A stretch of DNA of 48,645 bases, taken from IMG/VR virus record IMGVR_UViG_3300006793_000054, positions 1 through 48,645 of that record. The stretch is one strand, 5' to 3'. This DNA comes from a virus. Numbering within the stretch: position 1 is the stretch's first letter; every line of letters begins with the position of its first letter. Both the position numbers and the translations under genes were made by a program. Below are positions 2,578-48,224 of this stretch, one piece after another. The notes beneath the pieces were generated by a model. It saw only the letters and a program-made list of their open reading frames with translations, was not told the origin of the DNA and did no database searches.

Positions 2578-2589
2578 TGATTATTTCTC

Positions 2590-4965: not shown

Positions 4966-5138
4966 TATTTTTTACCTTTAGCTTTTATTTTTGCCTTTTT
5001 ACTTAAATCTTTAAAATGAAAAAGTTTTACACTGGTTTTACCGTGTGTTTTACCAGAATGTAAATCTCCATTAGGCATTTTATGTGAACCGCCTTTGTGT
5101 TCAGTTCCATCTTTTTTATAGTGTTTTACGCCTTTCAT
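4965..5138 (-). CDS. Small basic protein, 57 aa
   Basis: I found this frame by eye between the capsid and tail-tube A-like genes. It starts MKGVKHYKKDGTEHKGGSHK and ends in a lysine-rich tail. It is strongly basic, with many Lys, His and Gly and no hydrophobic segment. Its TAA overlaps the ATG of the tail-tube A-like gene by one base, which fits a real, translationally coupled gene. Similar tiny basic proteins lie upstream of terL here, so it may be a DNA- or RNA-binding virion or packaging accessory; that is a guess. Confidence 0.6.
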   Translation of the reverse strand: MKGVKHYKKDGTEHKGGSHKMPNGDLHSGKTHGKTSVKLFHFKDLSKKAKIKAKGKK

Positions 5139-5140
5139 AA

Positions 5141-5281
5141 TTATTTAGGCATACACTTTGGCATTTCGCCAGATTTATATGCAGGTTGGCTTCCATTCTT
5201 TTTAGTTGAACCACCATATTTATAAGGAGTTCTACCACCACCCATTTTCTTTACTCTTTTTTTATCTTTACCATACATCAT
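5141..5281 (-). CDS. Small basic protein, 46 aa
   Basis: A short frame starts with two ATGs (MMYGKDKKRVKKMGGGRTPY) behind a good Shine-Dalgarno (AGGAA, about 7 bases upstream). It ends two bases before the next small gene. It is Lys/Gly/Tyr-rich and basic, with one Cys near the C-terminus (MPKCMPK). It is the first gene after the probable terminator behind the capsid gene. I do not recognise a family. Residues such as GGGRTPYKYGGS echo short Gly/Tyr-rich phage structural peptides, but the function is unknown. Confidence 0.55.
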   Translation of the reverse strand: MMYGKDKKRVKKMGGGRTPYKYGGSTKKNGSQPAYKSGEMPKCMPK

Positions 5282-5294
5282 AATTATTTCCTAT

Positions 5295-5326
5295 AAAAAA
5301 GTGGAGGAGTCCGTGAAGACTCCCCC
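5295..5326 (-). terminator. Rho-independent terminator after the capsid gene
   Basis: On the minus strand a GC-rich stem (5326-5318 with 5311-5303, eight pairs and one mismatch, loop of six bases) is followed by a run of six T. It sits 11 bases behind the capsid stop. It probably reduces transcription from the highly expressed capsid gene into the tail genes. Confidence 0.75.
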
Positions 5327-5336
5327 GATTTTGACA

Positions 5337-6311
5337 TTAGTCAATTGTGTAGAATGCACTACATAGGGCATCATCTCTAAGTACTTTCGCACCATAGACA
5401 TGAAGACCACGCACAATGTCACCAAACGATGTTGGGTCTCTCAACACTTCAGTTGAAAGAATTGTGTTAGCAGTAGCAGTAGAACTCATGTGACCAGCCA
5501 TAACTTTACCAGTAGCATTTGATGTGCTAGCAATGTTATTAGACTTGTACATGTCGAATCCACGTAATTTTCCACTTGAAACTAAACCGTTTCTGATTGA
5601 GCCTTGACCTGCGTTAAAGTCAACAGAAAGCATTTTAGAACCAGATTGTGACAACTCTTCATAGAATGAAGGAGGTGCAACAAACCAACGACCTTCTTCA
5701 GGTACGTTCTGGTCATCTAAAAGCCTAGCCATCCTAGCCATTAGGTCAATAGCATCTACACCAGTACCGTCAGAACCAAGTAGGTCTACAGAGTTAGTTG
5801 CGTGAGTCATAGTAGAATCAGCAGTAGCACTGTCAGAACCAATGATATGGTCAGGTGATGATGCAGAACAACCAGCAAACATAGTTGCTAAAACAGCCGC
5901 ATCGTATGCATCTTTAAGAGCATAAGCCGCAGAGCTTGAAGCAACTTCTTTGAAGTTAACATGTGACATGTTGCTTTCAATATCATCTACGATGAATTTA
6001 AAAGCTTTAGCACTGTCAACAACCAAAGAGATTTCTTGGTCGGTTAGTTTTGTGTCAGTAGTGTCAGAACCACGTGTGTAGTCTGATACTGAAATGACAG
6101 GTTCTTTAATAATCTTTACAGAGTCTCCGAAAGAGGAAATTTCACCAGCGTAATCTGTGTTGGTGATAGCTTCTACAACCGAGGCTTTCCTAAAAAAGTT
6201 TAGAACCTTTTTAGAGTAAACCGAAGGTAGGAAGAAACTATTAGTTTGCCCACTTACGGAGTTTGCAAAGTTAGCATTTGTATCTGTTGAGGGTTCAAAA
6301 AATTGAGCCAT
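5337..6311 (-). CDS. Major capsid protein
   Basis: This 324-aa protein follows the scaffold gene and precedes the tail genes. It starts MAQFFEPSTDTNANFANSVS and has the features I associate with HK97-fold coat proteins of marine podoviruses. An N-terminal arm is followed by VYSKKVLNFFRKASVVEAI, a helix-rich P-domain-like part (VDDIESNMSHVNFKEVASSS), and a C-terminal RGLHVYGAKVLRDDALCSAF. The Shine-Dalgarno is strong (AAAGGAGA). A TATAAT-like hexamer lies at 6332-6337 on this strand without a clear -35, so an internal promoter is only a possibility. The terminator at 5295-5326 follows. Assignment rests on order, size and pattern. Confidence 0.85.
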   Translation of the reverse strand: MAQFFEPSTDTNANFANSVSGQTNSFFLPSVYSKKVLNFFRKASVVEAITNTDYAGEISSFGDSVKIIKEPVISVSDYTRGSDTTDTKLTDQEISLVVDSAKAFKFIVDDIESNMSHVNFKEVASSSAAYALKDAYDAAVLATMFAGCSASSPDHIIGSDSATADSTMTHATNSVDLLGSDGTGVDAIDLMARMARLLDDQNVPEEGRWFVAPPSFYEELSQSGSKMLSVDFNAGQGSIRNGLVSSGKLRGFDMYKSNNIASTSNATGKVMAGHMSSTATANTILSTEVLRDPTSFGDIVRGLHVYGAKVLRDDALCSAFYTID

Positions 6312-7895: not shown

Positions 7896-8121
7896 TTTCT
7901 TCTCTCCGAGTTAGTGCTTCTTTAACCTGTAGGTCCAACTGCTCTAGGCGTACCAGAGAATTCATCTTCCCCTGCAAGCGGAACATTTCCTGTTCCGATG
8001 TTGCCACCACCAGTGCCTGTAGGTCCAAGGTCTTGAGGTTGTTGAGGTGCTCCTTGAAGTCCTCCCATTGGGGACTGTTGACTATTGGGTTGAGCTTCTT
8101 CGCCATTTGTTTGTCCAGCAT
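7888..8121 (-). CDS. Small helical protein overprinted on the portal 3' end, 77 aa
   Basis: The first 200 bases of this gene lie inside the last part of the portal gene in another frame. The product (MLDKQMAKKLNPIVNSPQWE, then EMFRLQGKMNSLVRLEQLDL) is amphipathic and helical. Its pattern of a Trp in the first helix and Arg-x-Gln-Gly-Lys followed by Leu repeats is one I know from small phage proteins encoded next to portals. It has a Shine-Dalgarno-like TAGGA seven bases before the ATG, and a second ATG at 8106. Its end overlaps the start of the 185-aa gene by eight bases. In the same bases the portal is a Pro/Gly/Gln-rich tail, consistent with a relaxed region that permits overprinting. Confidence 0.62.
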   Translation of the reverse strand: MLDKQMAKKLNPIVNSPQWEDFKEHLNNLKTLDLQALVVATSEQEMFRLQGKMNSLVRLEQLDLQVKEALTRREENV

Positions 8122-10132
8122 TTTGCATTCCTATAATTTGTGCCATCACAGCCGCTTCTTCAGGGTCGTTGAGTATCTCATCAGGGTCTAAGTCTAAGCT
8201 GTAGGCTAATTCACTAATCAATTTAGAAATCTTAACAAACGGTGCAACAGCAGGATTCTGAGCAGTCTGTAAGAACATTGTCAATCTTTGACTTCTTACT
8301 TCTTTCTGCATCAAGCTGTTAGTACCTGTAGCCTTAACTTCTAAATCACCTTTGACATCCAACTCGTCCTCTAGAAATTGCATGTTCCACTGGAAGTAGG
8401 CTTCCCCTAGTGGTTTCAATAAAAAGTCATCAAGGTTCTTGATAACTGTTTTAATGTTTAAACTAGATGCTCCAAGTAACATAGACATACCAGAGGCAGT
8501 CCTTGTCATACTTTGAACACCTGTCTGTCCGTGAGAGTAACTAGGTATACCAGTTTGCTCATCTGCAAGTTGCCTAAACTTGTCGAACATCATTAAGTTT
8601 TCTTGTGATGTATTAGGAAACTTTAAGCCGTGTATAGCTTGCCCAGGCATTCCTGCTTGTCTGCGGAATATCTTTCCTGGATATATCTCCATTGATTGCC
8701 CACCAACTAAAGCAGACTCATCTACATCAAAGACTAACGACCCAGACATTGCTAGGTTGTCAATAGCCATTCTTGCATGACCATTCATAATCTGTTGAGA
8801 ATCATCCATGTTCTCTGCTACACCAATACCAAAGAAATTGTATGGGTTTCTTTCGTATGGGAAAGCGTGATAAGGTATTCTATAAGGAGTAAATGGATTT
8901 AGTACTGCTCTTAATAAGTAGTGTCCACATGTCCATATATTAACCTGTACTTCATCTAAGTCATCAACACTGTCGGGTAAGTCGATTCCTACTTCTCTGG
9001 CGTACTCTGCATCCATTATTCCCCAGTACTCTAAGATTTCAAAGTTAGAACCTACTTCTTCGTCATACCTTGAATCATCTTTTAACTGGCTTTCAAAATC
9101 TTTTTCCACATAGTTCGGACCCATTTGAATTGCTTTACGTATAGCATCATCATCAAAGTAAGGCATGTTACGTAGTTGTCTTACTTGACTACGATTCATT
9201 TTATGTCTGTGGATTACATACTCACATTCTTCCATATTGGTTGCATTAGGGTCTGGATAAAAATCCCAACAACTAACAAACTCAATACGTGGTACTCTAA
9301 CCTCTAAAGGATTGTAAGCTCTGTTACCTTCCTCATCTGTGTCCCACTTGTGTAATTTTTTATTAAAGTTAAATGGTCCTTTAACAATACCAGTACCTAG
9401 TAAAGCCGACTCTAGTAAAGCATTTCTCATTTCAGAATTGCCATTAGATTCTTCTATCTGGTCATGGATTAACTTCTCCATTCGTCTGGCGGCTCTTTGT
9501 GCAGGAGATAGTTCTAGAGCTTGTGGGTCAGGACTTGCTCCGTCTGTAAGTATTCCTGATTCTTCTGCTTGGTCTTCTAAGCTGTCCTCAAACATTCCGT
9601 TTAAGTAAGTAGCCCCAGGTTTTAGAACTTTACCGTCACCTTCATAACCTACATCGTATGGGTTGTCTTTGAGGTTTCCAAAGTTATCTGGTAGCTCTTC
9701 TTCTTCACCCACTGTAGTTTCTAAACTGGGTGTAGGATTAGAAGTATCTAGATGTGCGTAGTCTGTTTCACCTTCAGGTATCTTGGTTTCCGAAATTCCT
9801 ATCGGAAATTTCCCTGTACCAAATATAACATCTACTAGTTGACCAAAAGCCGCAAGGACTTTTGTTTTTGTAATCTTAACAAATACTCGTGACTTCTCAG
9901 ACTCTCTAAACTTTACGTTCTTTGAGTAAAGCCCTCTATAGTTCTCGTAAGCTTTAAGCCAACGAGTCTCGTCTGTTTGTCGTGCGTCCTCTGCAACTGC
10001 AAATCTATCTTTAATAGTTCCAATAAGATTTCTTTGCACATCCTCTTCAAGTGTTAGTTGGACACCAGATTCGCCTTCTACCTCTTCATAAATACTATTA
10101 GCGTTTAAAAATGTATTTTCGTTTTCTGCCAT
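7922..10132 (-). CDS. Portal (head-tail connector) protein
   Basis: At 736 aa this is the size of P22-like portals rather than the T7 connector (about 536 aa). Recognisable parts include an N-terminal helical region, LRNMPYFDDDAIRKAI, the membrane-like hydrophobic loop region VSCWDFYPDPNATNMEECEY, and the C-terminal helical crown (MTRTASGMSMLLGASSLNIK, VIKNLDDFLLKPLGEAYFQW). The last 55 residues are Gly/Pro/Gln-rich and overlap another gene in a different frame. It lies three bases behind terL. The portal forms the dodecameric ring through which DNA enters and leaves the capsid. Confidence 0.9.
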   Translation of the reverse strand: MAENENTFLNANSIYEEVEGESGVQLTLEEDVQRNLIGTIKDRFAVAEDARQTDETRWLKAYENYRGLYSKNVKFRESEKSRVFVKITKTKVLAAFGQLVDVIFGTGKFPIGISETKIPEGETDYAHLDTSNPTPSLETTVGEEEELPDNFGNLKDNPYDVGYEGDGKVLKPGATYLNGMFEDSLEDQAEESGILTDGASPDPQALELSPAQRAARRMEKLIHDQIEESNGNSEMRNALLESALLGTGIVKGPFNFNKKLHKWDTDEEGNRAYNPLEVRVPRIEFVSCWDFYPDPNATNMEECEYVIHRHKMNRSQVRQLRNMPYFDDDAIRKAIQMGPNYVEKDFESQLKDDSRYDEEVGSNFEILEYWGIMDAEYAREVGIDLPDSVDDLDEVQVNIWTCGHYLLRAVLNPFTPYRIPYHAFPYERNPYNFFGIGVAENMDDSQQIMNGHARMAIDNLAMSGSLVFDVDESALVGGQSMEIYPGKIFRRQAGMPGQAIHGLKFPNTSQENLMMFDKFRQLADEQTGIPSYSHGQTGVQSMTRTASGMSMLLGASSLNIKTVIKNLDDFLLKPLGEAYFQWNMQFLEDELDVKGDLEVKATGTNSLMQKEVRSQRLTMFLQTAQNPAVAPFVKISKLISELAYSLDLDPDEILNDPEEAAVMAQIIGMQNAGQTNGEEAQPNSQQSPMGGLQGAPQQPQDLGPTGTGGGNIGTGNVPLAGEDEFSGTPRAVGPTG

Positions 10133-28994: not shown

Positions 28995-29224
28995 TGAAAA
29001 AGAAAAGAGAAGAAGCTGAGTTGCTTGGATATAAACTATTGTATAATAGGACAGGCAACTTAGTCACTGAAAGATTAAGTACGGACATCACACAACTTAA
29101 GAAGTATTTTAGTGTAGAAGAGTACGCAACACTTAATACAATAGTCAGAGAAGCTACAAAGAAATTAGATGAGGTGCATAGTTATATTGAATCTAATTTA
29201 AATGCTAGGAAGATGGATGATTAG
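28994..29224 (+). CDS. Small charged protein at the end of the early region, 76 aa
   Basis: The protein (MKKKREEAELLGYKLLYNRT, then GNLVTERLSTDITQLKKYFS) is charged and helical, with a possible coiled coil at the C-terminus (TIVREATKKLDEVHSYIESN). It is coupled to nrdB through TAATG. Its stop overlaps that of the convergent adenylate cyclase gene by three bases (29222-29224 with 29221-29223), so there is no room for a terminator between them. No known family. Confidence 0.6.
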   Translation: MKKKREEAELLGYKLLYNRTGNLVTERLSTDITQLKKYFSVEEYATLNTIVREATKKLDEVHSYIESNLNARKMDD

Positions 29225-30951
29225 ATTGTGTATATGATAATAGGTTCTGCTTTACCCTTGACATAAATAGGGTCTAACAATTTAGCTTGGGTAGTAGAAC
29301 CTGCTATCGTATTCACACCAACAACTATATCCTCGCCTACTTCTTTAGTAGAGCTTTCAAGTCTTGCCGCAAGATTAACAGCATCACCTATCGCAGAGTA
29401 ATCAAACCTTGAGTCACTACCCATATTACCTATTACCGCTTCTCCTGTATTTATGCCGATACCTATCTCTATTCCTAGCTTGGCTTCTGCCATATCTCGG
29501 TGTATCTCTAACGCTGTTTGGATGGCTTTGTTCTCATGTTCGTCTAGGCTTACTGGAGCATTGAAGATTGCCATCATTGCATCCCCTATATATTTATCTA
29601 CCATCCCACCATTTCTTTTAACTGCATCAGCCTGAATAGTCAAAGCTTTATTCATAATTTCAGTCACCTTTTCTGGCTCTAACCTCTCTGATAAACTAGT
29701 AAAACCTCTTACATCTGTAAAGAGGAAGGTACATCTTCGTCTATCTCCTCCTAACTTCAGCGAACTGGGGTCATCTTGCAACTGCTTAACCTGCCGTGGG
29801 TCGAGGTAATGTTCAAACTGTTTCTTGATTTGCTGTCTAAGTTTATATTGAGTTCTAAAGTTTAAATAGAATTGCAGTGTAGCAATAAGTGTCATACTTA
29901 TTAAAGACCAAGTGACATCTATGAGTATATTATTCTGTATGACACTATATCCAAAATAGCCTGTTCCTGCCATCAAAGTACCAACTGATACTACCCCCTT
30001 AGTGATACCTAGATAATTGATTAGAGAGGCTGTGAGTAAGCCTGAGAGGATTAATATGAATAGTTCTGCAAGTAATCTGTACTCTGGAATTTTAGGACTA
30101 TCAAGCAACATACTTTCTGAAAGTGCCGCCTGTATTTTGTGAGGTTCTATTAACCCAACAGGCGTTGCAAGTTGAGGCGAGATTCCTTTAGCAGTAAAAC
30201 CGACAAAGACAAATGTGCTTTCTACATTCATCTCTTCTAATGTTGTTTGTGGTGTGTCAACCCAACTAATCCACTTACGCCCAAAACTATCTGTATCTAC
30301 TGGGGGTATGCCCTTGACTCTTATCATGTCAATACCATTTTGATTAGTAACAATCTGATAAGTATTACCACCCCCAAGTATCTTTAAAACTTCTGTACCA
30401 AAAGAAGCTACCCATCCTGTTGGTGTTTGTTGTAGTAATGGTATCTGTCTTACAAGATTATCTACATCTACTGGAGCAGAGACTGCACCTTGAGAGGCTG
30501 ACTGTTTTAGTATATCGACATTCGATAAGAAACCAGAAGCTTGTGGTAAGGAAACATTTGGTCCTTTTATAACTGTCCCATGAGTAGCAGGATATAGACC
30601 GTTGTCTACTTCTGGCATAGCTATGACACTTGCAGACTTGGAAAGCTCTAAAGCAAACTCATCATCCCCACCCATTCTATCTGCATGTGGAAACAACATG
30701 ACCCAACCAACACCGTAAGCTCCTGCATCCATAATCTCTTTATGAATCTTAGCTAAGTCTTGACGAGGTAGAGGGTAGCCTCCTAGATTATCAAGGTCTT
30801 GTTCCGTAATATTCAGTACAGTAAAATGCCCAGTAGCGTTTGGTGTTGCCACTAGAGCATCAAATGTTTTAAGCCTGAGTACTTCTAAAGGTTCTGAGTT
30901 AAATAATAAAGGTAATGTTAATATACCTAGTAAAGTTAATGCCCACTTCAT
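29221..30951 (-). CDS. CHASE2-domain membrane adenylate cyclase (class III)
   Basis: The 576-aa protein should make cAMP from ATP under control of an extracytoplasmic sensor. TM1 lies at residues 3-17. A CHASE2-like periplasmic domain follows (about 20-290, with FDALVATPNATGHFTVLNIT and the typical GYPLPRQDLAKI). Three TM segments follow at about 293-314, 319-338 and 343-363. The cytosolic class III catalytic domain has every key residue: metal-binding Asp413 (FTDVRGFT) and Asp457 (DKYIGDAM), substrate Lys453 and Asp523, and transition-state Asn526 and Arg530 (GDAVNLAARLE). CHASE2 cyclases are common in free-living bacteria, often beside FecR-domain genes, but a phage copy is unusual. It starts four bases inside the end of a 26-aa frame and has no ribosome site of its own, so translation is probably coupled. 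It closes the late operon. Confidence 0.93.
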   Translation of the reverse strand: MKWALTLLGILTLPLLFNSEPLEVLRLKTFDALVATPNATGHFTVLNITEQDLDNLGGYPLPRQDLAKIHKEIMDAGAYGVGWVMLFPHADRMGGDDEFALELSKSASVIAMPEVDNGLYPATHGTVIKGPNVSLPQASGFLSNVDILKQSASQGAVSAPVDVDNLVRQIPLLQQTPTGWVASFGTEVLKILGGGNTYQIVTNQNGIDMIRVKGIPPVDTDSFGRKWISWVDTPQTTLEEMNVESTFVFVGFTAKGISPQLATPVGLIEPHKIQAALSESMLLDSPKIPEYRLLAELFILILSGLLTASLINYLGITKGVVSVGTLMAGTGYFGYSVIQNNILIDVTWSLISMTLIATLQFYLNFRTQYKLRQQIKKQFEHYLDPRQVKQLQDDPSSLKLGGDRRRCTFLFTDVRGFTSLSERLEPEKVTEIMNKALTIQADAVKRNGGMVDKYIGDAMMAIFNAPVSLDEHENKAIQTALEIHRDMAEAKLGIEIGIGINTGEAVIGNMGSDSRFDYSAIGDAVNLAARLESSTKEVGEDIVVGVNTIAGSTTQAKLLDPIYVKGKAEPIIIYTI

Positions 30952-31028: not shown

Positions 31029-32135
31029 TTAATCTCCTTGGTTTATAGTGATACTAGAATTTCCTCCTCCATTAATGACAAGCTGTGTCCCCTTCCCATT
31101 CTGGACTAAGAGTACCGTGTACCCTCCGTCTCTATCTAAATCTAAACGGACAGTATCTTCTAAAACTTTATAGAAAGTTAGCACATTGTCTGTTAAGAAA
31201 GTATTTATTTGTGTGTTAGAATCAAAGCCCAACTGAGTACCTTTTAAATTTATATCTGTTCGTAGTAAAGATTCTGTTTGGTCTAGCTCATTTACATCTT
31301 CTATAATATCTAGTAAGTCTTCAAGAAAATTAACATCAAGATAATTGACATCTAATTCTGTAAACTCTAAATCGTCTTCAGCTAAATAGTCTACTTCTAA
31401 ATCATCAAACTCAAGGAAGTCAACATCCAAAACATTAGTATTACTAGTTCCATCTTGTCTTTCATTTTGTTTTACTTCTCTTGGTGCATTTACTATTAGC
31501 ATGTTATCAATTAACTCAAGTGTTAAGTCAAGGATAACAGGGTTGGTTGGTTTGGCTTCATACATAGAAACCGTAGTAGCTTGGTAAGGTTTGTTAAGAA
31601 CCACTTGTCCCATAGCTGTTACAACAACAATCTCTCCACTTGGAAGACCGTTATCGTCTGGTAATAATATAACTAAACTCCTACCGATTTCATCTACAGT
31701 TACAGTAAAATCAGTACCACGAATACCTATCGTAGCACTAGGAGTTTTTATAAATATATTTTGTTTGTCTACAGTTGCTAGTTTTCCTGTGATAAATCTT
31801 GCAGTACCACTAGCAAACTCTAGAGCCATCTTCGATTTGGAAGGGTCAGGGTCGTATATAAACTCATCTATGATAAGTTCAGAGTGTTCAGTCAATCTAA
31901 CCTGACTGTCATCTAAAAAAGTAATGCCTATTCTTCCATTAGAAGTTTGAACATTATCATAACTATTTATATCAAGAGCTAAAGAAGCTATATAATCTTT
32001 ATCTCTTACTACCCTGCCCGACCCTTTAAGTTCTGTTATGTTGCCTATATTAGCAACCGACTGAACTGCCGCCATCGTTTTGAATGACACAGACAGTACC
32101 ACCAGAACCAGTACTAAGTATTTTAAGCCAGTCAT
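31029..32135 (-). CDS. Secreted FecR-domain protein with acidic repeat and curlin-like end
   Basis: The 368-aa product has a signal peptide (residues 1-23, hydrophobic core YLVLVLVVLSVSF, cleavage after MAA). A FecR domain follows at about 40-165 (VQTSNGRIGITFLDDSQVRL, then ATIGIRGTDFTV). Residues of about 225-285 form an acidic Leu/Asp repeat (VDFLEFDDLEVDYLAEDDLE). The last residues, GGGNSSITINQGD, match the Gly-x-x-Asn-(5)-Gln pattern of curlin repeats. FecR domains usually bind partners in the periplasm or at the surface and often occur beside CHASE2 cyclases. The tail suggests contact with the curlin-like protein. The start overlaps that gene by 86 bases; the signal peptide supports this start rather than the Met at residue 21. 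Confidence 0.82.
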   Translation of the reverse strand: MTGLKYLVLVLVVLSVSFKTMAAVQSVANIGNITELKGSGRVVRDKDYIASLALDINSYDNVQTSNGRIGITFLDDSQVRLTEHSELIIDEFIYDPDPSKSKMALEFASGTARFITGKLATVDKQNIFIKTPSATIGIRGTDFTVTVDEIGRSLVILLPDDNGLPSGEIVVVTAMGQVVLNKPYQATTVSMYEAKPTNPVILDLTLELIDNMLIVNAPREVKQNERQDGTSNTNVLDVDFLEFDDLEVDYLAEDDLEFTELDVNYLDVNFLEDLLDIIEDVNELDQTESLLRTDINLKGTQLGFDSNTQINTFLTDNVLTFYKVLEDTVRLDLDRDGGYTVLLVQNGKGTQLVINGGGNSSITINQGD

Positions 32136-32760
32136 TATCTTTTGTACTCATTTGATTGATGTTAAAAGTTCTACTACTACCTGTTTGGTCAAGGTAGAAA
32201 TATCCTCCTGCATAACCTTGCCCATCAAAGTTTACAGTGTTGGAATCTCCATCAATATCCATGTAGTTTGTTGCTCCATCATAATCTATATCAGCATTAA
32301 TAGTGTTACTATCACCATTAATAATCCAATCTAAATCAGTATTACTTGACATAGAAGCTGTTGCTAAGTCTAGTGTAAATGTATTACTACTACCTGTAGC
32401 TTGCACATTTACATTTGAACCATCTGCTCCATATGTATTAGAAGGGTCTACTTGAATAGTAAACGCATTACTGCTACCATCAAAATTAAAATACCCTGTA
32501 AAGTTATCAGCCCATATATCACCTAGAAATTTATTAGTATCTCCTATTTGATTTACGTCAAGCGTCATTGTACCACCGTCTAAATCGAAAGGAGTCATTG
32601 AACCTGCGGAAGATAGTAATCCCCCTATTAAGTTAGCTGAACCTAACTGTTCTAAATCTAGATTAGCAGTAGCTCCACTCTGCTCTACAAAAATCTCGTT
32701 GTCTGCGGCAAAAGTAAGTGATGACAGTATGCCTAATATTATTATTATTATTTTATTCAT
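32050..32760 (-). CDS. Curlin-like secreted repeat protein (putative amyloid subunit)
   Basis: The 236-aa protein has a signal peptide (MNKIIIIILGILSSLTFAAD). About seven degenerate repeats of 20-30 residues follow, built on Gly-[SD]-[ST]-Asn-x-hydrophobic-x-[Asn/Asp/Gln], such as GSSNAFTIQVD, GSSNTFTLDLA, GDSNTINADID, GDSNTVNFDGQG and GSSRTFNINQM. This is the logic of CsgA/CsgB strand-turn-strand repeats, where Asn and Gln ladders hold the amyloid together, though here Asp is more frequent. Two Cys (224 and 236) lie at the end and could form a disulfide. It lies directly behind csgG, overlapping by eight bases, as expected for a substrate of that pore. The family is likely but divergent. Confidence 0.75.
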   Translation of the reverse strand: MNKIIIIILGILSSLTFAADNEIFVEQSGATANLDLEQLGSANLIGGLLSSAGSMTPFDLDGGTMTLDVNQIGDTNKFLGDIWADNFTGYFNFDGSSNAFTIQVDPSNTYGADGSNVNVQATGSSNTFTLDLATASMSSNTDLDWIINGDSNTINADIDYDGATNYMDIDGDSNTVNFDGQGYAGGYFYLDQTGSSRTFNINQMSTKDNDWLKILSTGSGGTVCVIQNDGGSSVGC

Positions 32761-33550
32761 ATTCCCAATAGCCTCTATCTATTCCTATATGTATTATATT
32801 TAAAACCCCAGTCTCTATTGCCTTTTGTAAAGCTATAGAAACACTCTCATTCTCAGCAACACCACCTTCTATTTCTACTAGTTCAGTGCCAGTTTCAATA
32901 AAACGAAATATATCCTGAGAAATGCTTGTGGATAAAATACTTTTAGATACTAAAGTTTCTGTAAGTACTTCACCAGTTGATACCGATACTAATCTTAATG
33001 ATATGGTTACAGTATCTTCTCTATAAGATTTACTATTTCCAATCCCTAAGTACCTAGCTCCGATACCTCCAGATTGCAGATTAGCCTCGTAACTAATCAC
33101 GCCTCCTTGAACTAAAAGCCCTGCAAAAAGTAAGGGCTTTAACTTATTATCTTCTTCAAATTCTTTACGAGTGCTTCTAATAAGCTGTCGTTCTTTTGTA
33201 AGGTCATCAAGACCTACACGTTCTACGACCCTAAAGAAATTACCATTAGCTGTGTGCTTAAAAGCCCTAATTAAAAATGCTTCAGGTGCTTGCGTAACTG
33301 CTGTACTAAACAAAGCAAACGTACTGTTGCTTCTTCGTTGCCCTGTCAAGTCTTTAAAACTATTGGGGTATACAGCTATGGTAGGTTTATTCTTAGCGGC
33401 AGGTAGATTCTTTAATACTGTGGATTGTAAATCTAGGGTTGAGGTGGGTTGTATTTTCTTGGTTAAAAATAAATCGTCATTAGCCTCAAAGACTGCACAA
33501 CTAGAAAGTAAAAGTACCGATAGGCAAAGTAATAGTCGTAGTTTCTCCAT
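32753..33550 (-). CDS. csgG: CsgG outer-membrane curli secretion pore
   Basis: CsgG is a lipoprotein that forms a nonameric beta-barrel channel exporting curli subunits. This 265-aa copy (E. coli 277 aa) has a lipobox with Cys18 (LLLSSCAVF). It has the family core FSTAVTQAPEAFLIRAFKHT, then ERQLIRSTRKEF, SGGIGARYLGIG at 160-171, LVSVSTGEVL, SQDIFRFIE and the conserved end AIETGVLNIIHIGIDRGYW. Aligning on FSTAV, the constriction residues Tyr51, Asn55 and Phe56 of mature E. coli CsgG correspond to Ser76, Leu80 and Phe81 here. It overlaps csgF by 50 bases. The assignment is strong; the pore change is by-eye alignment. Confidence 0.95.
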   Translation of the reverse strand: MEKLRLLLCLSVLLLSSCAVFEANDDLFLTKKIQPTSTLDLQSTVLKNLPAAKNKPTIAVYPNSFKDLTGQRRSNSTFALFSTAVTQAPEAFLIRAFKHTANGNFFRVVERVGLDDLTKERQLIRSTRKEFEEDNKLKPLLFAGLLVQGGVISYEANLQSGGIGARYLGIGNSKSYREDTVTISLRLVSVSTGEVLTETLVSKSILSTSISQDIFRFIETGTELVEIEGGVAENESVSIALQKAIETGVLNIIHIGIDRGYWEYE

Positions 33551-34001
33551 TTGAATCCGTTATCGTTAATGTTATATATACACCGTCACTTGAATAAGTA
33601 ATAGTATTACCTTCTAATTCTATAGTCCCTTCTGTACTAGGATTTTCTCCGAATAAATTTTCAACCAACTGTCGTGATAACTGTGCATAAATCCTAGACT
33701 CTAAGTTACGTACAAACCTAGCAAGTGTAGTGTTCTCTTTGTCCCTAGCAATTTCATCTTGCAAAGCTTTTATCTCTGCTTTAAGACTAAGCTTTCTTGA
33801 ATGCTCTTGGTTCTCTATTGTTAAATAATGTGAGCTAGTATTGTTCCCATTAAAGCTAGGGCTTTTAAATTTAAATACTACCTCATCAGCCAGTGTATAA
33901 CCTGACCAAAAAACCACCGACATACCCCAAAAGAAAATACAGAACATACAATTACGTTCTGCCTTATGGCTTCTGAATGTGGGCTTTAACTTCAATTTCA
34001 T
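33501..34001 (-). CDS. csgF: CsgF curli assembly factor
   Basis: CsgF plugs into the outer face of CsgG and anchors the nucleator at the surface. The 166-aa protein (E. coli 138 aa) has a long basic start and a hydrophobic signal core (MFCIFFWGMSVVFWSGYTLA, likely cleavage before Asp39). The family signature follows at 43-53 (FKFKSPSFNGN), equivalent to FRNPNFGGNP in E. coli. This is the segment that enters the CsgG pore. A helical middle and a C-terminal beta part (ITYSSDGVYITLTITDSNGE) resemble E. coli [28 protein letters not shown] lies seven bases before the start. It begins the accessory block, two bases behind the lysis gene. Confidence 0.9.
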   Translation of the reverse strand: MKLKLKPTFRSHKAERNCMFCIFFWGMSVVFWSGYTLADEVVFKFKSPSFNGNNTSSHYLTIENQEHSRKLSLKAEIKALQDEIARDKENTTLARFVRNLESRIYAQLSRQLVENLFGENPSTEGTIELEGNTITYSSDGVYITLTITDSNGETTTITLPIGTFTF

Positions 34002-34003
34002 TT

Positions 34004-34354
34004 CTAATCTTTCCTCTGGTCTTCTCTATCAGCTTTCGCTATTTCTTCTGGGTTAATTAAGTTGGGTACTCCTAGTAATGTTTTAAGTAGTACATCTTGG
34101 CGTATGGATTGATTATCTAAAGCCCTTATCCTATCAATTAATGATACGATAATACCATATTGGCTGTCGAGTTTTGTAGATACTCTTTCTTCCATAGTAT
34201 CTAAACTTGTTTGAACTTTGTCATCTAGCGTGTCTAACTTAGTTTCCATGCCGTCAATAATTCTGTTAATTAACTTTGACACAAACCAGCCTAAACCCAT
34301 TGCGGCGGCAATAGGGAATCCGACTTCTGTTATAAAGGTTACTGCTTCAGACAT
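34004..34354 (-). CDS. Membrane/coiled-coil protein, possible holin partner, 116 aa
   Basis: One N-terminal membrane segment (FPIAAAMGLGWFVSKLINRI) is followed by a long charged coiled coil (MDGMETKLD-type heptads through about residue 75). This resembles BhlA/UviB-type small holin or antiholin proteins. It starts at the last base of the 3TM holin gene and precedes csgF by two bases. An alternative is a spanin-like or scaffold role in the inner membrane; no Rz/Rz1 pair is otherwise seen. Confidence 0.6.
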   Translation of the reverse strand: MSEAVTFITEVGFPIAAAMGLGWFVSKLINRIIDGMETKLDTLDDKVQTSLDTMEERVSTKLDSQYGIIVSLIDRIRALDNQSIRQDVLLKTLLGVPNLINPEEIAKADREDQRKD

Positions 34355-34827
34355 TATTCTTTAGGGGTATGTGATGCTCCAAAATAAAAACTAATGACGG
34401 CACTAGCTAATCCACCAAGATAACCTAGTACTAAGTTAATAAGAGCTTCGGAGTTTTGTTCTGGGGGTTGTAAAGTAACAAGGAATATATATCCCATAAA
34501 TCCTCCTACAACTGTAATGCCCATTATCCTAGCTGTCCAATCCTTTGAGAACTTTCCACGAGCATCCTGCTTGTCTTCAGTTTCTAATTTAAATACATCT
34601 ACGTCCAGCTCTTTCATCTGGATTTCAAAAGCATTCTCAGCTTTCTTAAGTTCTAGCATTTGTTCAGGTGTTGCTTCTGCTACAGCCTTCTCAATTGCTT
34701 TAGGGGTGTTGGGACAACCAAGTACATCAGCTATCATGTTTGCCGCCATACCACCCATAGGACCGCCTAACGCAGTCCCTAATGTAGGAGCTACTGCTCC
34801 CACTATGTTCTTCAATAAGTTCTTCAT
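34354..34827 (-). CDS. Holin, 3TM family (GTA-holin-like)
   Basis: The 157-aa protein has a Gly-rich, weakly hydrophobic start (IVGAVAPTLGTALGGPMGGM), a charged helical middle and two clear membrane segments near the end (IMGITVVGGFMGYIFLVTL and LINLVLGYLGGLASAVISFY). This layout matches the family known as holin of 3TMs for gene-transfer-agent release. It overlaps the lysozyme gene by four bases, which fits a lysis pair: the holin lets the signal-less lysozyme reach the cell wall. Confidence 0.8.
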   Translation of the reverse strand: MKNLLKNIVGAVAPTLGTALGGPMGGMAANMIADVLGCPNTPKAIEKAVAEATPEQMLELKKAENAFEIQMKELDVDVFKLETEDKQDARGKFSKDWTARIMGITVVGGFMGYIFLVTLQPPEQNSEALINLVLGYLGGLASAVISFYFGASHTPKE

Positions 34828-35279
34828 TCGGCTACCCCTAGTACCATTAATTGTAATTCTCTACTACGTCCACCGACCTGATTAAACCAACGACTGTCTT
34901 CCATTTCAACAGCCATCTGTTTCCAGTCTCCTTCCTTACAAGCTTTAAACATATTCTTAAACTTTGCAAGTCTTGTGCCACCTAAGTTAAAACACATGTT
35001 GACTAAGACATGTTGTATTGGCTCTGGTAATCTATTAAAAGAAGGTACAGTACCATAGATATGTATTGTTTCTCTATAATGTTTATCAAAGTCATCTGCG
35101 AAATATAAGTCTACTACTTCTTGTGTTACAGGCTTTCCTACTTCCCAAGTATATTCAGGGTCTTCTGGTTGACACAGGTGTCCTATGCCTAGAGTTTTAT
35201 ACCCTAAACTATCTTCATAGATTTTTAATACCTCACCTTCGTGCCTTGTTATTTGTTGTTTACATTCTTCTATATTCAT
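34824..35279 (-). CDS. Endolysin, T4-lysozyme family (GH24)
   Basis: This 151-aa enzyme cleaves the glycan chains of peptidoglycan. The catalytic triad of T4 lysozyme (Glu11, Asp20, Thr26) is matched exactly in spacing by Glu14, Asp23 and Thr29 (HEGEVLKIYEDSLGYKTLGI), followed by GHL. The C-terminal helical lobe holds VLVNMCFNLGG and SRWFNQVGGRSRELQLM, as in the family. It has no signal peptide or anchor, so export needs the adjacent holin. It shares four bases with the 1253-aa gene upstream. Confidence 0.95.
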   Translation of the reverse strand: MNIEECKQQITRHEGEVLKIYEDSLGYKTLGIGHLCQPEDPEYTWEVGKPVTQEVVDLYFADDFDKHYRETIHIYGTVPSFNRLPEPIQHVLVNMCFNLGGTRLAKFKNMFKACKEGDWKQMAVEMEDSRWFNQVGGRSRELQLMVLGVAE

Positions 35280-42184: not shown

Positions 42185-43361
42185 ATGCTCTGTCTCCTAA
42201 TTGTGCTCTAAGAAATGCTTCATAATCAAATCCATATCCACCGACATCATAAGGATTAACATTACCTTGAATACCTCTATAAGCTAAGTATTGTGTTGCA
42301 GGGTCTTGTTGTGGATTAAAGTCTGCAAAGTTTACAAACTGTGGGGTTTCTCCACTTCTAGAATAATTATCTTGAGCCGCAGTAGCTTGTTGTTGTTGAG
42401 CCTCATATGCAAAGTACTCACTTTTTCTTGCACTTTGTTGTGCATTATATTGCTCTATTGCTTCTTCTTCAGCTTGCATTGAAGACCCTAACTGCTGTAC
42501 AGGAGCTAGTTTAGCATAAGCCGCACCTTCTCTACTGTCTTTAAAGGATTGTGTAAACCCTTTATCTTTTTGTCTTCCTTCAAGTATACTAGGCTTTGGT
42601 GTTGCAGTTACTATATCATCAGGAGTTAAACCCCCAACAGCACTGTCGTATTTACCAGATGCATAAGTATTATAAGCTTCTTGGTTTTTCCATATTTGAT
42701 GTTGACCTGTAGCCTCATTAAATTGATAAACTTCGCCTTTAGCTAGTTCAATAGGCTTGCCTTTAGCATCTACCATAGACTCTACGTTTCTAACATTCTC
42801 ACCTACAAAGGCACTTTGACTTCGACCTAAATCTGCTGAAGCTTTTATTGTATCTAATTCACCACTAGCTTTTAATGCATCTAATTCTTCACCAGATAAT
42901 TCACTAAGTAGTTTACCATCTTTAGTTGTTAATGCAAGGTCTTTATCAAAAATATTTCCTTGTTTTGAAGGCTCAATATATCCATTAGTTACATCACTTA
43001 CAAAATCTCTAAATGCACTACCTGCTCCTCGTGCACCTTCTTTCATAAAAGGTTTACTAACTTTGTTCATTGCCCATTCAATACCATCACTTACTTTATT
43101 AAACACAGTACCTACACCGTCTTTTACAAAGTTACCTACTTTACCAATCGCTTTAAATACATTGCCTAAATAAGGTATATCTTTAAGCCAAGTAAATATT
43201 GCCCCTCCAACCCCTGGCAGTATAAAAGATAAAGCAAGAGAACCTAATGGTCCTAACTTACCGAAAACTTTAGCTATTTTACCTAAACCTTTCTTTAGTT
43301 TCTTTCCTATCTTTTTAAATACATTACCGATTTGTTTTGCTTTTTTTCTTAACCATCCCAT
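42177..43361 (-). CDS. Internal virion protein with membrane-active start, 394 aa
   Basis: From the ATG at 43361 (TAATG overlap with the 1322-aa gene; a GTG four codons earlier is the alternative) the first 30 residues are strongly basic and amphipathic (KKAKQIGNVFKKIGKKLKKG). They are followed by a hydrophobic Gly-rich segment (LGPLGSLALSFILPGVGGAI) and further amphipathic repeats (LGNVFKAIGKVGNFVKDGVG). This looks like a peptide that inserts in membranes. The second half is hydrophilic and Gln/Tyr-rich. A role in forming the ejection pore in the host envelope is plausible, like T7 gp14 (196 aa), but no close homology is seen. Confidence 0.65.
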   Translation of the reverse strand: MGWLRKKAKQIGNVFKKIGKKLKKGLGKIAKVFGKLGPLGSLALSFILPGVGGAIFTWLKDIPYLGNVFKAIGKVGNFVKDGVGTVFNKVSDGIEWAMNKVSKPFMKEGARGAGSAFRDFVSDVTNGYIEPSKQGNIFDKDLALTTKDGKLLSELSGEELDALKASGELDTIKASADLGRSQSAFVGENVRNVESMVDAKGKPIELAKGEVYQFNEATGQHQIWKNQEAYNTYASGKYDSAVGGLTPDDIVTATPKPSILEGRQKDKGFTQSFKDSREGAAYAKLAPVQQLGSSMQAEEEAIEQYNAQQSARKSEYFAYEAQQQQATAAQDNYSRSGETPQFVNFADFNPQQDPATQYLAYRGIQGNVNPYDVGGYGFDYEAFLRAQLGDRAYG

Positions 43362-46300
43362 TAGCTTAACCACCCATTTATTAAATTACCAATTGCTGTC
43401 AAATTACTGCTCCAGTTACTTTCCTTAGAAGCACCTGTGTCATTACCTAAAGCCGCAGTGTATATTGAAGTCTTCCTAGACTGTTCATTATCCCAACGCC
43501 TAAAGTTAAAGTCTGCTTCGTCACGTAACTCTTGCCATAAGAAGTTTTGAGCAGAGGCTGTAAGTCCAAATGCATTTTGTGCATTCTGCCTATTAACTTC
43601 ATTCTGTGCCGCAGTGTCTGCCGTGTTCGCCTGTCTACGCCATGCTACGTTTGATTGTGCTATGGCTGTTTCGTTCTTTGTATTAAACTCTTCTCGTGCA
43701 AAGTCTTGCTGTGCATTGAATTTACTTACGTCTGTTTTAAGTTGTGCTTCAAGTTTGTTAGCGTCTGCTTCGTTACCAACTCTTCGAGCTTCTGCAACAT
43801 TCAAAGCTTGTGCATTAAACTGTTCCATTGCATTAGTTTGTTGTGCATTAAACTGTTCATTAGCTTGTGCTAAGTTAGCCATGTACTGGTCAGTTTGTGT
43901 TTGAGTCTGTGCATTAAATTGACGAGCCACATTTTCAGCAGATTGATTTGATAACAACCTTTGTTGTTCTTGTTGTGCCTTCATCATATTAGCTTGTTGC
44001 TCGTTGCTAAGATTAGCCATATCCCTAGTCAAAAAGTTCTTAGCATTTTCTACTTGAAGTCTTTCTTGTGTACTAAGGTTTGCTAAGTCCATCTGTGCTA
44101 GTGCTGTAGCATTCTGCATAATAGATTGTTGTTCTGCATTCATGTTCTCAAGAGATACAGTTTGCATAAACTTACTATTAGCTAAAGCTGTTTGCTGTTC
44201 AGTACTAAAGTTAGCCATGTCCATACCAGCAGTAACTTGAGCATTAGTCATTGCGGCTTGTTGTGCATTACTTAACTCAGCAAGACCAAGCTCTTGAGCT
44301 AATCTAGCATTGTTCTGTGCCGCAGTCATCTTCTTGTTTAAGTTAGCTAACTCAATCTGATTCTGTGCAGTCATTGTCTCACTATCAGCCCTGTTCTTTT
44401 CTGTCAGGTTAGCTAGTGATACTTTCTCGCTTGTACTTAGTTTAGCTAAGTCAGCCCTTTGTAGAAGCTCTTGTTCTTGAGACATTACCTGAACTGTTGT
44501 GTTCAGTTCTTGTAGTCTCATTCTGTTGTCTTCAGTAAAGTTAGCCGCATCAGCCGCACTTCTTTCTGTTAACTCTGCTATTTCTATTTGCTGTTCATTA
44601 TTAAGATTAGCCAAATCCATCTGTTGAGCCATAGCCGCATTAGTTTTTCTAAAGTCTACTAAGTTTTGTAGATTAGTTAAACGTGCTTGTTGCTCACTAG
44701 ACATGTTAGCTCTAGACGTAGTGTTACGTTCAGAGAGTTCAGCTAGTTCTACTTTAAGACTTGCATCAAGATTAACTTCTTCCATACGAGAGTTAAGCTC
44801 TGCTTGTCTTGTACTTCTTTGTACTATAGCAGTTAGCTCAGATAATCTAAATTGATTATCGGCTGTAAAGTTTGCAGTATCTGTAGCGGCTCTATCTGAT
44901 AGTTCGGCTAGTTCAATCTGTTGCTCATTGGACATGTTAGCCAAGTCCATCTGCTGTGCAAACTGTGCATCAGTCTTACGGAAGTCTATAAGAGTTTGTA
45001 GATTTGTAAGACGTTCTGTTTGCTCTGCGGTCATTGTATCTTTTGCCGCCGCATTCATTTCTGATACACGTTGCATCTCAACTTGTAAGGCAGGAGAAAG
45101 GTTAGCCTTTTCCATATCCTGATTCAAGTCTGCTTGACGCATTACTTTATTTACTTGAGCATTATAAGACTGTAGTTTTGCTTGTTGCTCTGCGGACATG
45201 TTCTGTCCTTCTGCCGCATTAAGAGCTTGTAAGTTTGCTAAGTCCATCTGGGCATTAGCATTTAGTGTAGCTATTGCCGCTTGTTGTCTTTGTGCAGATT
45301 CTTGAGAAGCCATAGCTTGCTGGTTCTGAATGTTCTGCATTCTAACTTGCTGTCTATTCTGGGCAGTTTGTTGTACAGCACTTTCATTAAAAGTACCTTG
45401 TTGTACTGCAATCTGCTGTGCCATCTGTGCAGTCTGAGAAGCGGCAGTTTGTCTATTAGATAGATTCTGCATTCTTAGTTGCATACTAGACTGTGCTTGT
45501 TGCAAGTTAGCTTGTTGTTCGTTTGATAAGTTTTGTTGTGCTCTAGCTTGGAGAGCCTGTGCGTTGCTCTGAGCCATTGGAAGAGCACTCTGGATGATTG
45601 CATTAAACAATGCATCTCTGCCCACTGTGGACACTGACATGCCCCTAGAAGCCATCTGTTGGTTAATAGCATCGACAGCAGGTTTAGCCCATAGTGGGGT
45701 CTTACCTTCTTCCATTCCTGCAAGTAAGCCTTCCATCTGTGTAGACACTAAAGCTTCTTGTGGTAATGCGGCAACTGCGGCAATAACCTCAACAGGCTCT
45801 GAATCTATCTTAGCTTCTACACTTGCAGGGTCTTCAGCTACTGCGGCTGTAATAGGCTCTGGTACGTTACCAACAACTGCCATCATGTCTGCGGCGGCTA
45901 CTGTACGTTCTTTACCTGTAACTGCTTGCATACTAGATGCTTGCATTGTAGGAATACCACCAATCTGTGCGGCATCTCCTTGAGGTGCTGTACCTGTAAT
46001 AGCTTGTCGACCTTCTAAGTCTACTGAAGGTGCGTTACCTAGTTCATTAGCTATTCGTGTTGCGGCTTCGCCTACTTGTGCTTGACGTTGTGCCGCTTTT
46101 CTAAATGCAGGAACATCATCAATGTCTACATTATTTGCTTGAGGTGTATAGTCAGCCGCATAATACTCAGCTACTGCGGCTTTAACTTCTTCTGTTTCGT
46201 CAATAGGTTGTACTACACCTGCTTCACGTGTAGCGGCTGTGCCTGTCTGTGCTTGACGTTCTCCTATTCTTTTATATTCTGGTAAGTCTTCAACTTGAAC

Positions 46301-47329
46301 ACCACGTTCTTTTGCTAAGTCTTGTAAGCCTTGAAGTTCTTGTGGAGAAATAGTCGATAACTTTCTTTCTGTAGCTTTAGCATCTGCAACTTTGTCTTGT
46401 CGTATTACTTTACCTGTTTCAGGGTCAAAGGTTGCACCGTCAGATAATTTACCTTGAATAAGTTTAGTTATTGAACCTTCTTCAACTTTTACTGTAGCAG
46501 GGTCTTTACCTTCTGTAATTGTACCTTCAGTTACTTGTGCTGTGGTAACAGGCTTATCCATCTTTGCGGCTGTTACTTCTGGAGCATCATCTTTAGAAAT
46601 TCTAGATATATCTTTTTCAGCTATTGTAGTAGCTGTTACGTCTTCAGTATCTCCTGCTTCTGTAACATCGCCTTCAGTTACTTGTTCTTTACTTGTATCA
46701 GCAACACCAGAAGCTCTAGCATATCCAGTCTTTTGCATTTTAAAAGATTGTGAACCTGCATCAAGTTCTGTGCCTGTTCTATCTATTTTACCTGCATCAG
46801 GAATAGTAGGAATACCTTCAGGCATTTCACCTTGAGCAATAGCTTCAGCAGTTACACCAGTACGTTGAACACGGTCTGTTCGATTAGGGTCTACTTGACC
46901 TTGACTTGTACCATCTTGTGTGTTATTATTATTACCACCGCTTTGAGTCCAACCTACACCAGCAACATATCTCCACCCATCTGCAATAGCTTCTGCATAA
47001 GAATTATATCCCTTTTGTCTCCACCAAGGACCACCACCTTGTCCTGGTCCACCTTGATTACCAGCTACCCCAGTATTACCACCATTTTGTTCTTCACCAT
47101 CTTCTACATTCTGTACAGGTTCAACATAATAGTTATTATTAGGATTTTCACCAACATCAATATCTGTATAATCATTTCTAGTATCATTATTTTCTACTGG
47201 TACTGAATCACCTCTAGGTCTTGAACCATTAGTATAGCCACCATAACCACCACGATAAAAGTTAGCACGTTTAGCCTTTAAATGCTTTAAAACACTTTTG
47301 TTATTTCTTTTGTTTCTTTTTTTACTCAT
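43361..47329 (-). CDS. Giant helical internal virion protein with 11-residue repeats, 1322 aa
   Basis: The N-terminal 150 residues are Gly/Asn/Asp-rich (NNNNTQDGTSQGQVDPNRTD). The next 300 carry degenerate repeats such as RQAQTGTAATRE and RQAQVGEAATRI plus Thr/Glu/Asp motifs. From about residue 560 to 1120 the chain is a long Gln/Asn/Ala-rich helix with the recurring motif ANLSNEQQ. Successive copies lie 22 or 33 residues apart, so the unit is 11, and one pair of blocks repeats with a 110-residue period (LTNLQTLIDFRKT and LTNLQNLVDFRKT). Such hendecads form straight or right-handed coiled coils, or membrane-lying amphipathic helices. It starts eight bases inside the glycosyltransferase gene. 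It is probably an ejected or tail-internal protein; the function is inferred. Confidence 0.7.
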   Translation of the reverse strand: MSKKRNKRNNKSVLKHLKAKRANFYRGGYGGYTNGSRPRGDSVPVENNDTRNDYTDIDVGENPNNNYYVEPVQNVEDGEEQNGGNTGVAGNQGGPGQGGGPWWRQKGYNSYAEAIADGWRYVAGVGWTQSGGNNNNTQDGTSQGQVDPNRTDRVQRTGVTAEAIAQGEMPEGIPTIPDAGKIDRTGTELDAGSQSFKMQKTGYARASGVADTSKEQVTEGDVTEAGDTEDVTATTIAEKDISRISKDDAPEVTAAKMDKPVTTAQVTEGTITEGKDPATVKVEEGSITKLIQGKLSDGATFDPETGKVIRQDKVADAKATERKLSTISPQELQGLQDLAKERGVQVEDLPEYKRIGERQAQTGTAATREAGVVQPIDETEEVKAAVAEYYAADYTPQANNVDIDDVPAFRKAAQRQAQVGEAATRIANELGNAPSVDLEGRQAITGTAPQGDAAQIGGIPTMQASSMQAVTGKERTVAAADMMAVVGNVPEPITAAVAEDPASVEAKIDSEPVEVIAAVAALPQEALVSTQMEGLLAGMEEGKTPLWAKPAVDAINQQMASRGMSVSTVGRDALFNAIIQSALPMAQSNAQALQARAQQNLSNEQQANLQQAQSSMQLRMQNLSNRQTAASQTAQMAQQIAVQQGTFNESAVQQTAQNRQQVRMQNIQNQQAMASQESAQRQQAAIATLNANAQMDLANLQALNAAEGQNMSAEQQAKLQSYNAQVNKVMRQADLNQDMEKANLSPALQVEMQRVSEMNAAAKDTMTAEQTERLTNLQTLIDFRKTDAQFAQQMDLANMSNEQQIELAELSDRAATDTANFTADNQFRLSELTAIVQRSTRQAELNSRMEEVNLDASLKVELAELSERNTTSRANMSSEQQARLTNLQNLVDFRKTNAAMAQQMDLANLNNEQQIEIAELTERSAADAANFTEDNRMRLQELNTTVQVMSQEQELLQRADLAKLSTSEKVSLANLTEKNRADSETMTAQNQIELANLNKKMTAAQNNARLAQELGLAELSNAQQAAMTNAQVTAGMDMANFSTEQQTALANSKFMQTVSLENMNAEQQSIMQNATALAQMDLANLSTQERLQVENAKNFLTRDMANLSNEQQANMMKAQQEQQRLLSNQSAENVARQFNAQTQTQTDQYMANLAQANEQFNAQQTNAMEQFNAQALNVAEARRVGNEADANKLEAQLKTDVSKFNAQQDFAREEFNTKNETAIAQSNVAWRRQANTADTAAQNEVNRQNAQNAFGLTASAQNFLWQELRDEADFNFRRWDNEQSRKTSIYTAALGNDTGASKESNWSSNLTAIGNLINGWLS

Positions 47330-48224
47330 CTATATATTCCTTTCTGTAATTTTCAGGATAATCTATTTTAAGTTTAGGCAACTGTGTAAATTCGTGTAGT
47401 TGTCCTAACTTTTCCATTTGTTCTAATTTAGTTAAATAGTTATCCATCCACTCATAATTTGTTCCAAACTCTGATTCTTTCATCACAATCCCACCAATCG
47501 TTTCATCATAAATGTAGGTCATTGGATTTTCATCAGTTGAATAAAAATTTAATCTACCTTCTAAAGCTTCGTGTTTTAAACGTAACATTTGTAAAGTATC
47601 TTCTCCGATGACTACATCTTCATCGAATTTAAACTTTGCGGCTTTCTTACTAAACCAAGTAACACGACAATTAATCTCATTCCACTCACTATACTTTCGT
47701 TGCTTTGTATAATATTTTTTATGTAAGCTTTCAAAGTATATTGATTTTTCGTGACTTAATCCGTCTTCTCTAAAATCTTTATAGTAGTCTAAACTTAAAA
47801 GTTCAGCATAGTCTACACTAAAAGGATAAAGAGCTAACAGTTCATCATCTATATAACGTAACGATGTTTGGTTCATGAGACATACTGCATCTGGTGGTTC
47901 TTTTAAAGTCTCTAGATGTTTGTAAAACCAAACACCATGAGCAGTTAGAAAGTCATCACCGTCAATAAGAACACAGTAATCATTATCGGAGGCAAGAAAG
48001 ATATCAAATACTGAGTTCTTACCTTTTGATGGAGTACCATTACTTTCTGTAATGTAATACTCTAAGTTATTAGATTCGCAATACTCTTTAGCTTCTTTAA
48101 CGTATTCTTCGTTTAAGCTATTGATTACTATTACTGTATCTTTTTTATATATGCCACTAAACTTTTTATCGTTGTGACGCTTTAATGATTCTAAATTACT
48201 TGAGGTTAGAATATAAAATTTCAT
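47322..48224 (-). CDS. GT-A-type glycosyltransferase
   Basis: This 300-aa protein has a Rossmann-like start (MKFYILTSSNLESLKRHNDK), the nucleotide-binding strand-helix order of family 2 enzymes, and a metal-binding DxD motif at 88-91 (VLIDGDDF). It later has a conserved-looking WFSKKAAKFKFDEDVVIGED. It transfers a sugar from a nucleotide-sugar to an acceptor, perhaps a virion protein or host surface glycan. It sits in the late operon between a small membrane protein and the giant internal protein, so modification of virions or of the receptor is possible. No ribosome site of good quality is seen. Confidence 0.72.
   Translation of the reverse strand: MKFYILTSSNLESLKRHNDKKFSGIYKKDTVIVINSLNEEYVKEAKEYCESNNLEYYITESNGTPSKGKNSVFDIFLASDNDYCVLIDGDDFLTAHGVWFYKHLETLKEPPDAVCLMNQTSLRYIDDELLALYPFSVDYAELLSLDYYKDFREDGLSHEKSIYFESLHKKYYTKQRKYSEWNEINCRVTWFSKKAAKFKFDEDVVIGEDTLQMLRLKHEALEGRLNFYSTDENPMTYIYDETIGGIVMKESEFGTNYEWMDNYLTKLEQMEKLGQLHEFTQLPKLKIDYPENYRKEYIDE

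Follow-up and report, generated by a model that had tools for sequence, protein, structure and literature searches.

A marine bacteriophage genome (the window: 48,645 bases, an IMG/VR virus record) encodes a membrane-bound class III adenylate cyclase that, judged by its sequence, is very likely to be enzymatically active and under selection. Probably it senses the periplasm and provides the signalling function of a curli (type VIII) export module carried by the phage. Catalysis is well supported by predicted domains and conserved residues, while the signal perceived and the target of the cAMP are proposed from gene neighbourhoods and comparison with cellular systems. The genes of the module and its neighbours are collected in Table 1.

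Table 1. Predicted genes of the minus-strand cluster, listed from the cyclase towards the lysozyme (window positions).
Feature	Position	Strand	Evidence
CHASE2 - three membrane segments - class III adenylate cyclase, 576 aa	29221-30951	-	Pfam, catalytic residues, AlphaFold2 model, PDB matches
Secreted FecR-domain protein, 368 aa, directly upstream of the cyclase	31029-32135	-	PF04773 (2.8e-11), no other domain; PHROG 37870 (2.7e-80)
Curlin-like repeat protein (putative CsgA/B equivalent), signal peptide and all-beta repeats	32050-32760	-	Weak repeat similarity and position
CsgG, outer-membrane curli export pore	32753-33550	-	PF03783 (7.9e-50); 47% identical to HTVC008M CsgG
CsgF, curli pore accessory protein	33501-34001	-	PF10614 (5.6e-20)
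116-aa protein, one hydrophobic N-terminal segment and a coiled coil	34004-34354	-	Weak holin-family PHROG match (2e-4)
157-aa membrane protein, probable lysis-cassette member	34354-34827	-	PHROG 1544, unknown function (8e-25)
Phage lysozyme (endolysin)	34824-35279	-	PF00959 (1e-10); overlaps next gene, same strand

The cyclase gene is a single long open frame with an ATG start; a sequence-only reading of this DNA had listed it with no strand, and the plus strand across the same positions contains many stops. Residues 13-304 match CHASE2 (PF05226, E = 1.2e-23, 84.5 bits against a cut-off of 26.3) and residues 406-569 match Guanylate_cyc (PF00211, E = 1.2e-18, far above the cut-off). The AlphaFold2 model (mean pLDDT 89) places these in the order N-terminal helix, periplasmic alpha/beta CHASE2 domain, long helical membrane part and catalytic domain, so that the CHASE2 sensor named in the earlier reading is borne out by profile and model alike. 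Where the earlier reading had three membrane segments, the model and a hydropathy plot are read here as indicating four: a hydrophobic helix at 2-16 precedes CHASE2 and helices at 292-339 and 347-379 follow it. One N-terminal and three C-terminal segments flanking the domain is the usual CHASE2 arrangement, which the modelled layout fits. The best PDB matches were all class III cyclases, with a phytochrome-cyclase fusion, Cya2, CyaB and OaPAC at the head.

All six catalytic residues that had been picked out from the sequence are present at the positions given. D413 and D457 are the two metal-binding aspartates of class III cyclases, N526 and R530 the transition-state Asn/Arg, and K453 and D523 the adenine-selecting Lys/Asp pair. 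In the cyanobacterial guanylyl cyclase Cya2 (2w01) the residue corresponding to K453 is Glu, and ATP is therefore the expected substrate; the alignment proposed earlier as a check on ATP against GTP thus points to an ATP-type enzyme, and guanylate cyclase activity is disfavoured by the K453/D523 pair. As every catalytic residue lies in one chain, a homodimer would hold two full sites. The earlier description of a phage-encoded, catalytically complete cyclase therefore holds as a prediction from domains and residues.

Treating the enzyme as a stand-alone cAMP weapon is not supported. The cyclase is the last gene of a minus-strand cluster running lysozyme, two small membrane proteins, CsgF, CsgG, curlin-like repeat protein, FecR, cyclase; neighbouring genes overlap or sit a few bases apart, with 77 nt before the cyclase, and an nrdAB region on the opposite strand converges on it. 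The published phage T8SS/curli module consists of CsgF, CsgG, CsgA/B, FecR and a cyclase in a set order, which the window reproduces; the domains, the shared order in Pelagibacter phage HTVC008M and Methylophilales phage Melnitz, and locus linkage together rule out an isolated gene. The assignment of the curlin-like protein is weak: Curlin_rpt was matched by four of 39 homologues (best 5.9e-5) and not by the window copy, the CsgB match was poor (0.014), and the AlphaFold2 model, although all-beta (pLDDT 87), had no significant PDB fold match in Foldseek. The FecR-domain protein is 80-89% kept in relatives, and the 116-aa protein lies directly upstream of CsgF in most related loci as well as in HTVC008M and Melnitz.

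Linkage was measured in viral sequences. With the cyclase as bait, a relative turned up in at least 598 viral stretches; as the peptide used there covered K453 and D457, scans baited with FecR and CsgG were run to remove this bias. They gave 150 loci, of which seven ended before a cyclase could show and 12 had no FecR, nearly all of the latter being contigs that stop shortly past the CsgG or curlin gene. In all 131 assessable loci the cyclase stood beside FecR, in 130 on the same strand; these loci are not all independent, and they supplied 82 further distinct cyclase sequences. Since the baits reach close relatives only, there is no conflict with the cyclase-less curli regions reported in some phages (PMC9599517).

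This linkage to FecR and CsgG counts against an active cyclase that works independently of curli. Such an enzyme would raise host cAMP, in line with the change proposed by the sequence-only reading, and reprogramme transcription by way of a CRP/FNR-type receptor. The complete active site is compatible with that proposal, as is the precedent of Sinorhizobium CHASE2 cyclases acting through the CRP-family regulator Clr (PMC13001267). It also draws on six related viral contigs (L034, positions 3032-4777, L035, L039, L040, L045 and L273) whose cyclase gene is flipped with respect to FecR and lies on the strand of nrdAB. The inversion should change the timing of cyclase expression, and co-transcription with FecR is thus not required. 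With the scarcity of CRP-size receptors described below, the proposal is unlikely.

Selection appears to act on cyclase activity and not merely on the presence of the gene, as shown by near-invariant catalytic residues and a dN/dS of about 0.12. In the 82 baited cyclases, D413, K453, D457, N526 and R530 were kept wherever the site was covered and D523 was kept in 62 of 63, the exception being Ser; among 80 viral relatives the other catalytic residues, D413 and D457 included, were invariant wherever covered and Ser replaced D523 in four. Median pairwise dN/dS over 132 genes was 0.118 in the cyclase domain, 0.159 in CHASE2 and 0.231 in the membrane part. An intact gene under purifying selection in 132 full-length phage relatives is not a chance presence. 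It is accordingly very improbable that the cyclase is a passenger that came in with the curli genes and has stayed with them while doing little or nothing: its absence from some phage curli regions (PMC9599517) would suit such a history, but the gene is intact in nearly every relative, the catalytic residues are essentially invariant and dN/dS is 0.12-0.16. The only clearly broken copy seen (L043, positions 8001-9710) has frame changes in the CHASE2 region, either real or an assembly error.

The module has precedents. A T8SS/curli module including a cyclase was described in 2022 in HTVC023P-type podoviruses and pelagimyophages (Wittmers et al. 2022, PMC9599517), its csgF/csgG part had been described earlier (PMC7029224) and is also present in Melnitz (PMC9004378), and the HTVC008M cyclase had been annotated before that report (GenBank). 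A phage cyclase is therefore not unprecedented, as had been supposed. The published pelagiphage module has CsgF, CsgG, CsgA/B, FecR and adenylate cyclase in the same order as the window. It differs in its carriers, which are HTVC023P-type, whereas the window carrier is related to HTVC103P, HTVC104P and HTVC115P; in the number of curlin genes, since the window has only one between CsgG and the cyclase; and in the histidine kinase placed before CsgF, where the 116-aa protein of the window, which may or may not be the gene the authors meant, has no kinase domain in Pfam. The cyclases of HTVC008M (AGE60353.1) and Melnitz are CHASE2-cyclases 32% identical to that of the window over 96-97% of the length and lie in the same module with the same gene order. 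Both phages, however, are myophages with two curlin-like genes, and the window cyclase belongs to a separate, well-supported clade on the podovirus side.

Alphaproteobacterial CHASE2 class III cyclases have the domain order and catalytic residues of the window cyclase, but they are 26-35% identical, about 740-790 aa long and mostly beside HlyD-type secretion genes, not curli; this neighbour likewise ties CHASE2 cyclases to export. Among 60 cyclases placed in a tree, those of phages grouped with three curli-bearing MAG-binned contigs and one 'Rickettsiales' MAG in a single clade (100/100), and the nearest cellular group was alphaproteobacterial with moderate support (90/80), an affinity in line with the origin already published. 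Four contigs binned into MAGs of Neomarinimicrobiota, Flavobacteriaceae and Saprospirales (L082, L083, L086 and L088) also contain the curli-FecR-cyclase module, whole or in part, and look like phage contigs inside the bins.

FecR is the candidate partner of the sensor. The phage FecR consists of a signal-peptide-like start and a FecR domain only, a build shown by 16 of 16 homologues. A FecI-FecR iron anti-sigma function is not supported, as the protein has no cytosolic anti-sigma N-terminal domain and no sigma factor occurs among the scanned neighbours. Around 40 alphaproteobacterial CHASE2 genes (256 kb) nine FecR-like ORFs were found, seven of them less than 500 bp from CHASE2, whereas 400 kb of control DNA taken from those genomes had none; a first-round FecR profile built without these cellular sequences gave the same result. 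FecR is adjacent to only seven of the 40 cellular CHASE2 genes sampled, so the pairing in cells is recurrent but not obligatory. In Burkholderia a secreted FecR-domain protein stands beside a CHASE2 histidine kinase in a biofilm operon (BiofilmReg, PMC5192318), and in Campylobacterota one stands beside CHASE2 cyclases in a cAMP cluster (PMC9239204), as in the window; the Burkholderia pair differs in its kinase output, and no curli genes are described there. From this recurrent adjacency and two independent papers with different outputs, we infer that FecR is a periplasmic partner of CHASE2 rather than an iron regulator, and the FecR of the module may be re-read accordingly. A precedent for envelope sensing is given by CyaD1, CyaD2 and CyaK of Sinorhizobium meliloti, CHASE2 cyclases that answer an envelope signal through the outer-membrane protein NsrA (PMC13001267), although these are chromosomal and their output runs through Clr. 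The last 80 residues of the window FecR have a curlin-looking end (YTV..IQ.G....VNGGG.S.ITI.Q); a curlin repeat there was suggested by eye and then rejected, since profile comparison with the curlin protein gave a probability of 0.6%.

What advantage cAMP synthesis brings to a phage whose host largely lacks the usual cAMP receptor is a puzzle. The presumed host order was surveyed in 120 genomes of an alphaproteobacterial order with more than 120 species, genomes of 1.1-1.6 Mb and rhodopsin in one member, three features by which the order is presumed, almost certainly rightly, to be Pelagibacterales; the SAM-V riboswitch as an order marker led to a different, small order of 18 genomes. A cyclic-nucleotide-binding (cNMP) domain was found in 47 of the 120 genomes and a PF00027 match was absent from the other 73. 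Strong matches were mostly in a mechanosensitive (MscS-type) channel protein of about 556 aa beside a class III cyclase, and weak ones in an 871-aa protein. Proteins of CRP/FNR size with this domain occurred in only one genome of the 120, and one such protein that was read looks FNR-like. The near absence of a CRP-size receptor makes the classical cAMP-CRP route doubtful. Cyclases of the host order's own were present in 38 of the 120 genomes, and those read lack CHASE2-type architecture. Two loci of the presumed SAR11 order (L399, positions 57-3024; L411, positions 697-6263) cluster a class III cyclase and the MscS-type cNMP-binding channel with an ion-channel-like protein and a second cyclase that has a long C-terminal region.

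The channel invites another explanation, in which phage cAMP gates the host MscS-type cNMP channel and so sets turgor or the timing of lysis, the curli pore being an envelope device and not a fibre exporter; the pinholin/secretin proposal for CsgGF of Melnitz (PMC9004378) is comparable. Host-order genomes with the 556-aa channel beside a class III cyclase are in its favour, as is the position of the phage module next to the lysozyme gene and that of a weakly holin-like protein. Yet no more than about a third of the 120 genomes have the channel, the module is not always beside lysis genes in other phages, and the conserved secreted curlin-like protein favours export. On balance we consider this explanation improbable, slightly more so than curli-independent signalling.

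In the favoured reading of the cyclase as the signalling arm of curli export, FecR would present a signal to CHASE2, such as the condition of the envelope or of curlin export. The four-helix membrane part and a transducing element would relay it to the catalytic dimer, and the infected cell would then accumulate cAMP, probably at a late stage. Late expression is suggested by gene order, as the position of the cyclase at the end of the strand bearing the lysozyme and structural genes fits it; promoter and terminator predictions over 28-36 kb were no more numerous than in shuffled sequence. The target of the cAMP is the least certain step: it could be the envelope, by way of the cNMP-binding MscS-type channel, or transcription, and an envelope effect seems at least as likely as a transcriptional one. 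A bolder version, to which we give only a small chance, is a self-monitoring export device in which FecR and CHASE2 sense periplasmic curlin or the envelope and the target of cAMP is the envelope, not CRP; fibre export would thereby be coupled to the timing of lysis in hosts without curli and almost without CRP.

The carrier is, on sequence similarity, an HTVC103P/115P-like podovirus; for such an uncultured virus the lytic life assumed in the earlier reading is a presumption. Its nearest isolates are the Pelagibacter phages HTVC115P, HTVC103P and HTVC104P (terminase 64-65% and DNA polymerase 49-51% identical), which infect Pelagibacter HTCC7211; from these isolates, at 64% terminase identity, a SAR11 host is probable. 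Between nrdB and the structural genes of HTVC115P there is no such module, and tblastn with the cyclase and CsgG gave no match in any of the three isolates. The open-licence papers searched hold no report of the module in HTVC103P-like or HMO-2011-type groups, and the HTVC103P/115P-like lineage is on that footing a new, further carrier: the cyclase-bearing curli module of phages extends to another group of probable SAR11 podoviruses. No direct terminal repeat was found at the window ends. Elsewhere in the window, a 300-aa glycosyltransferase-like protein (47322-48224) heads the late strand, and a 1322-aa protein with long Gln/Asn/Ala-rich repeats (43361-47329) is probably structural.
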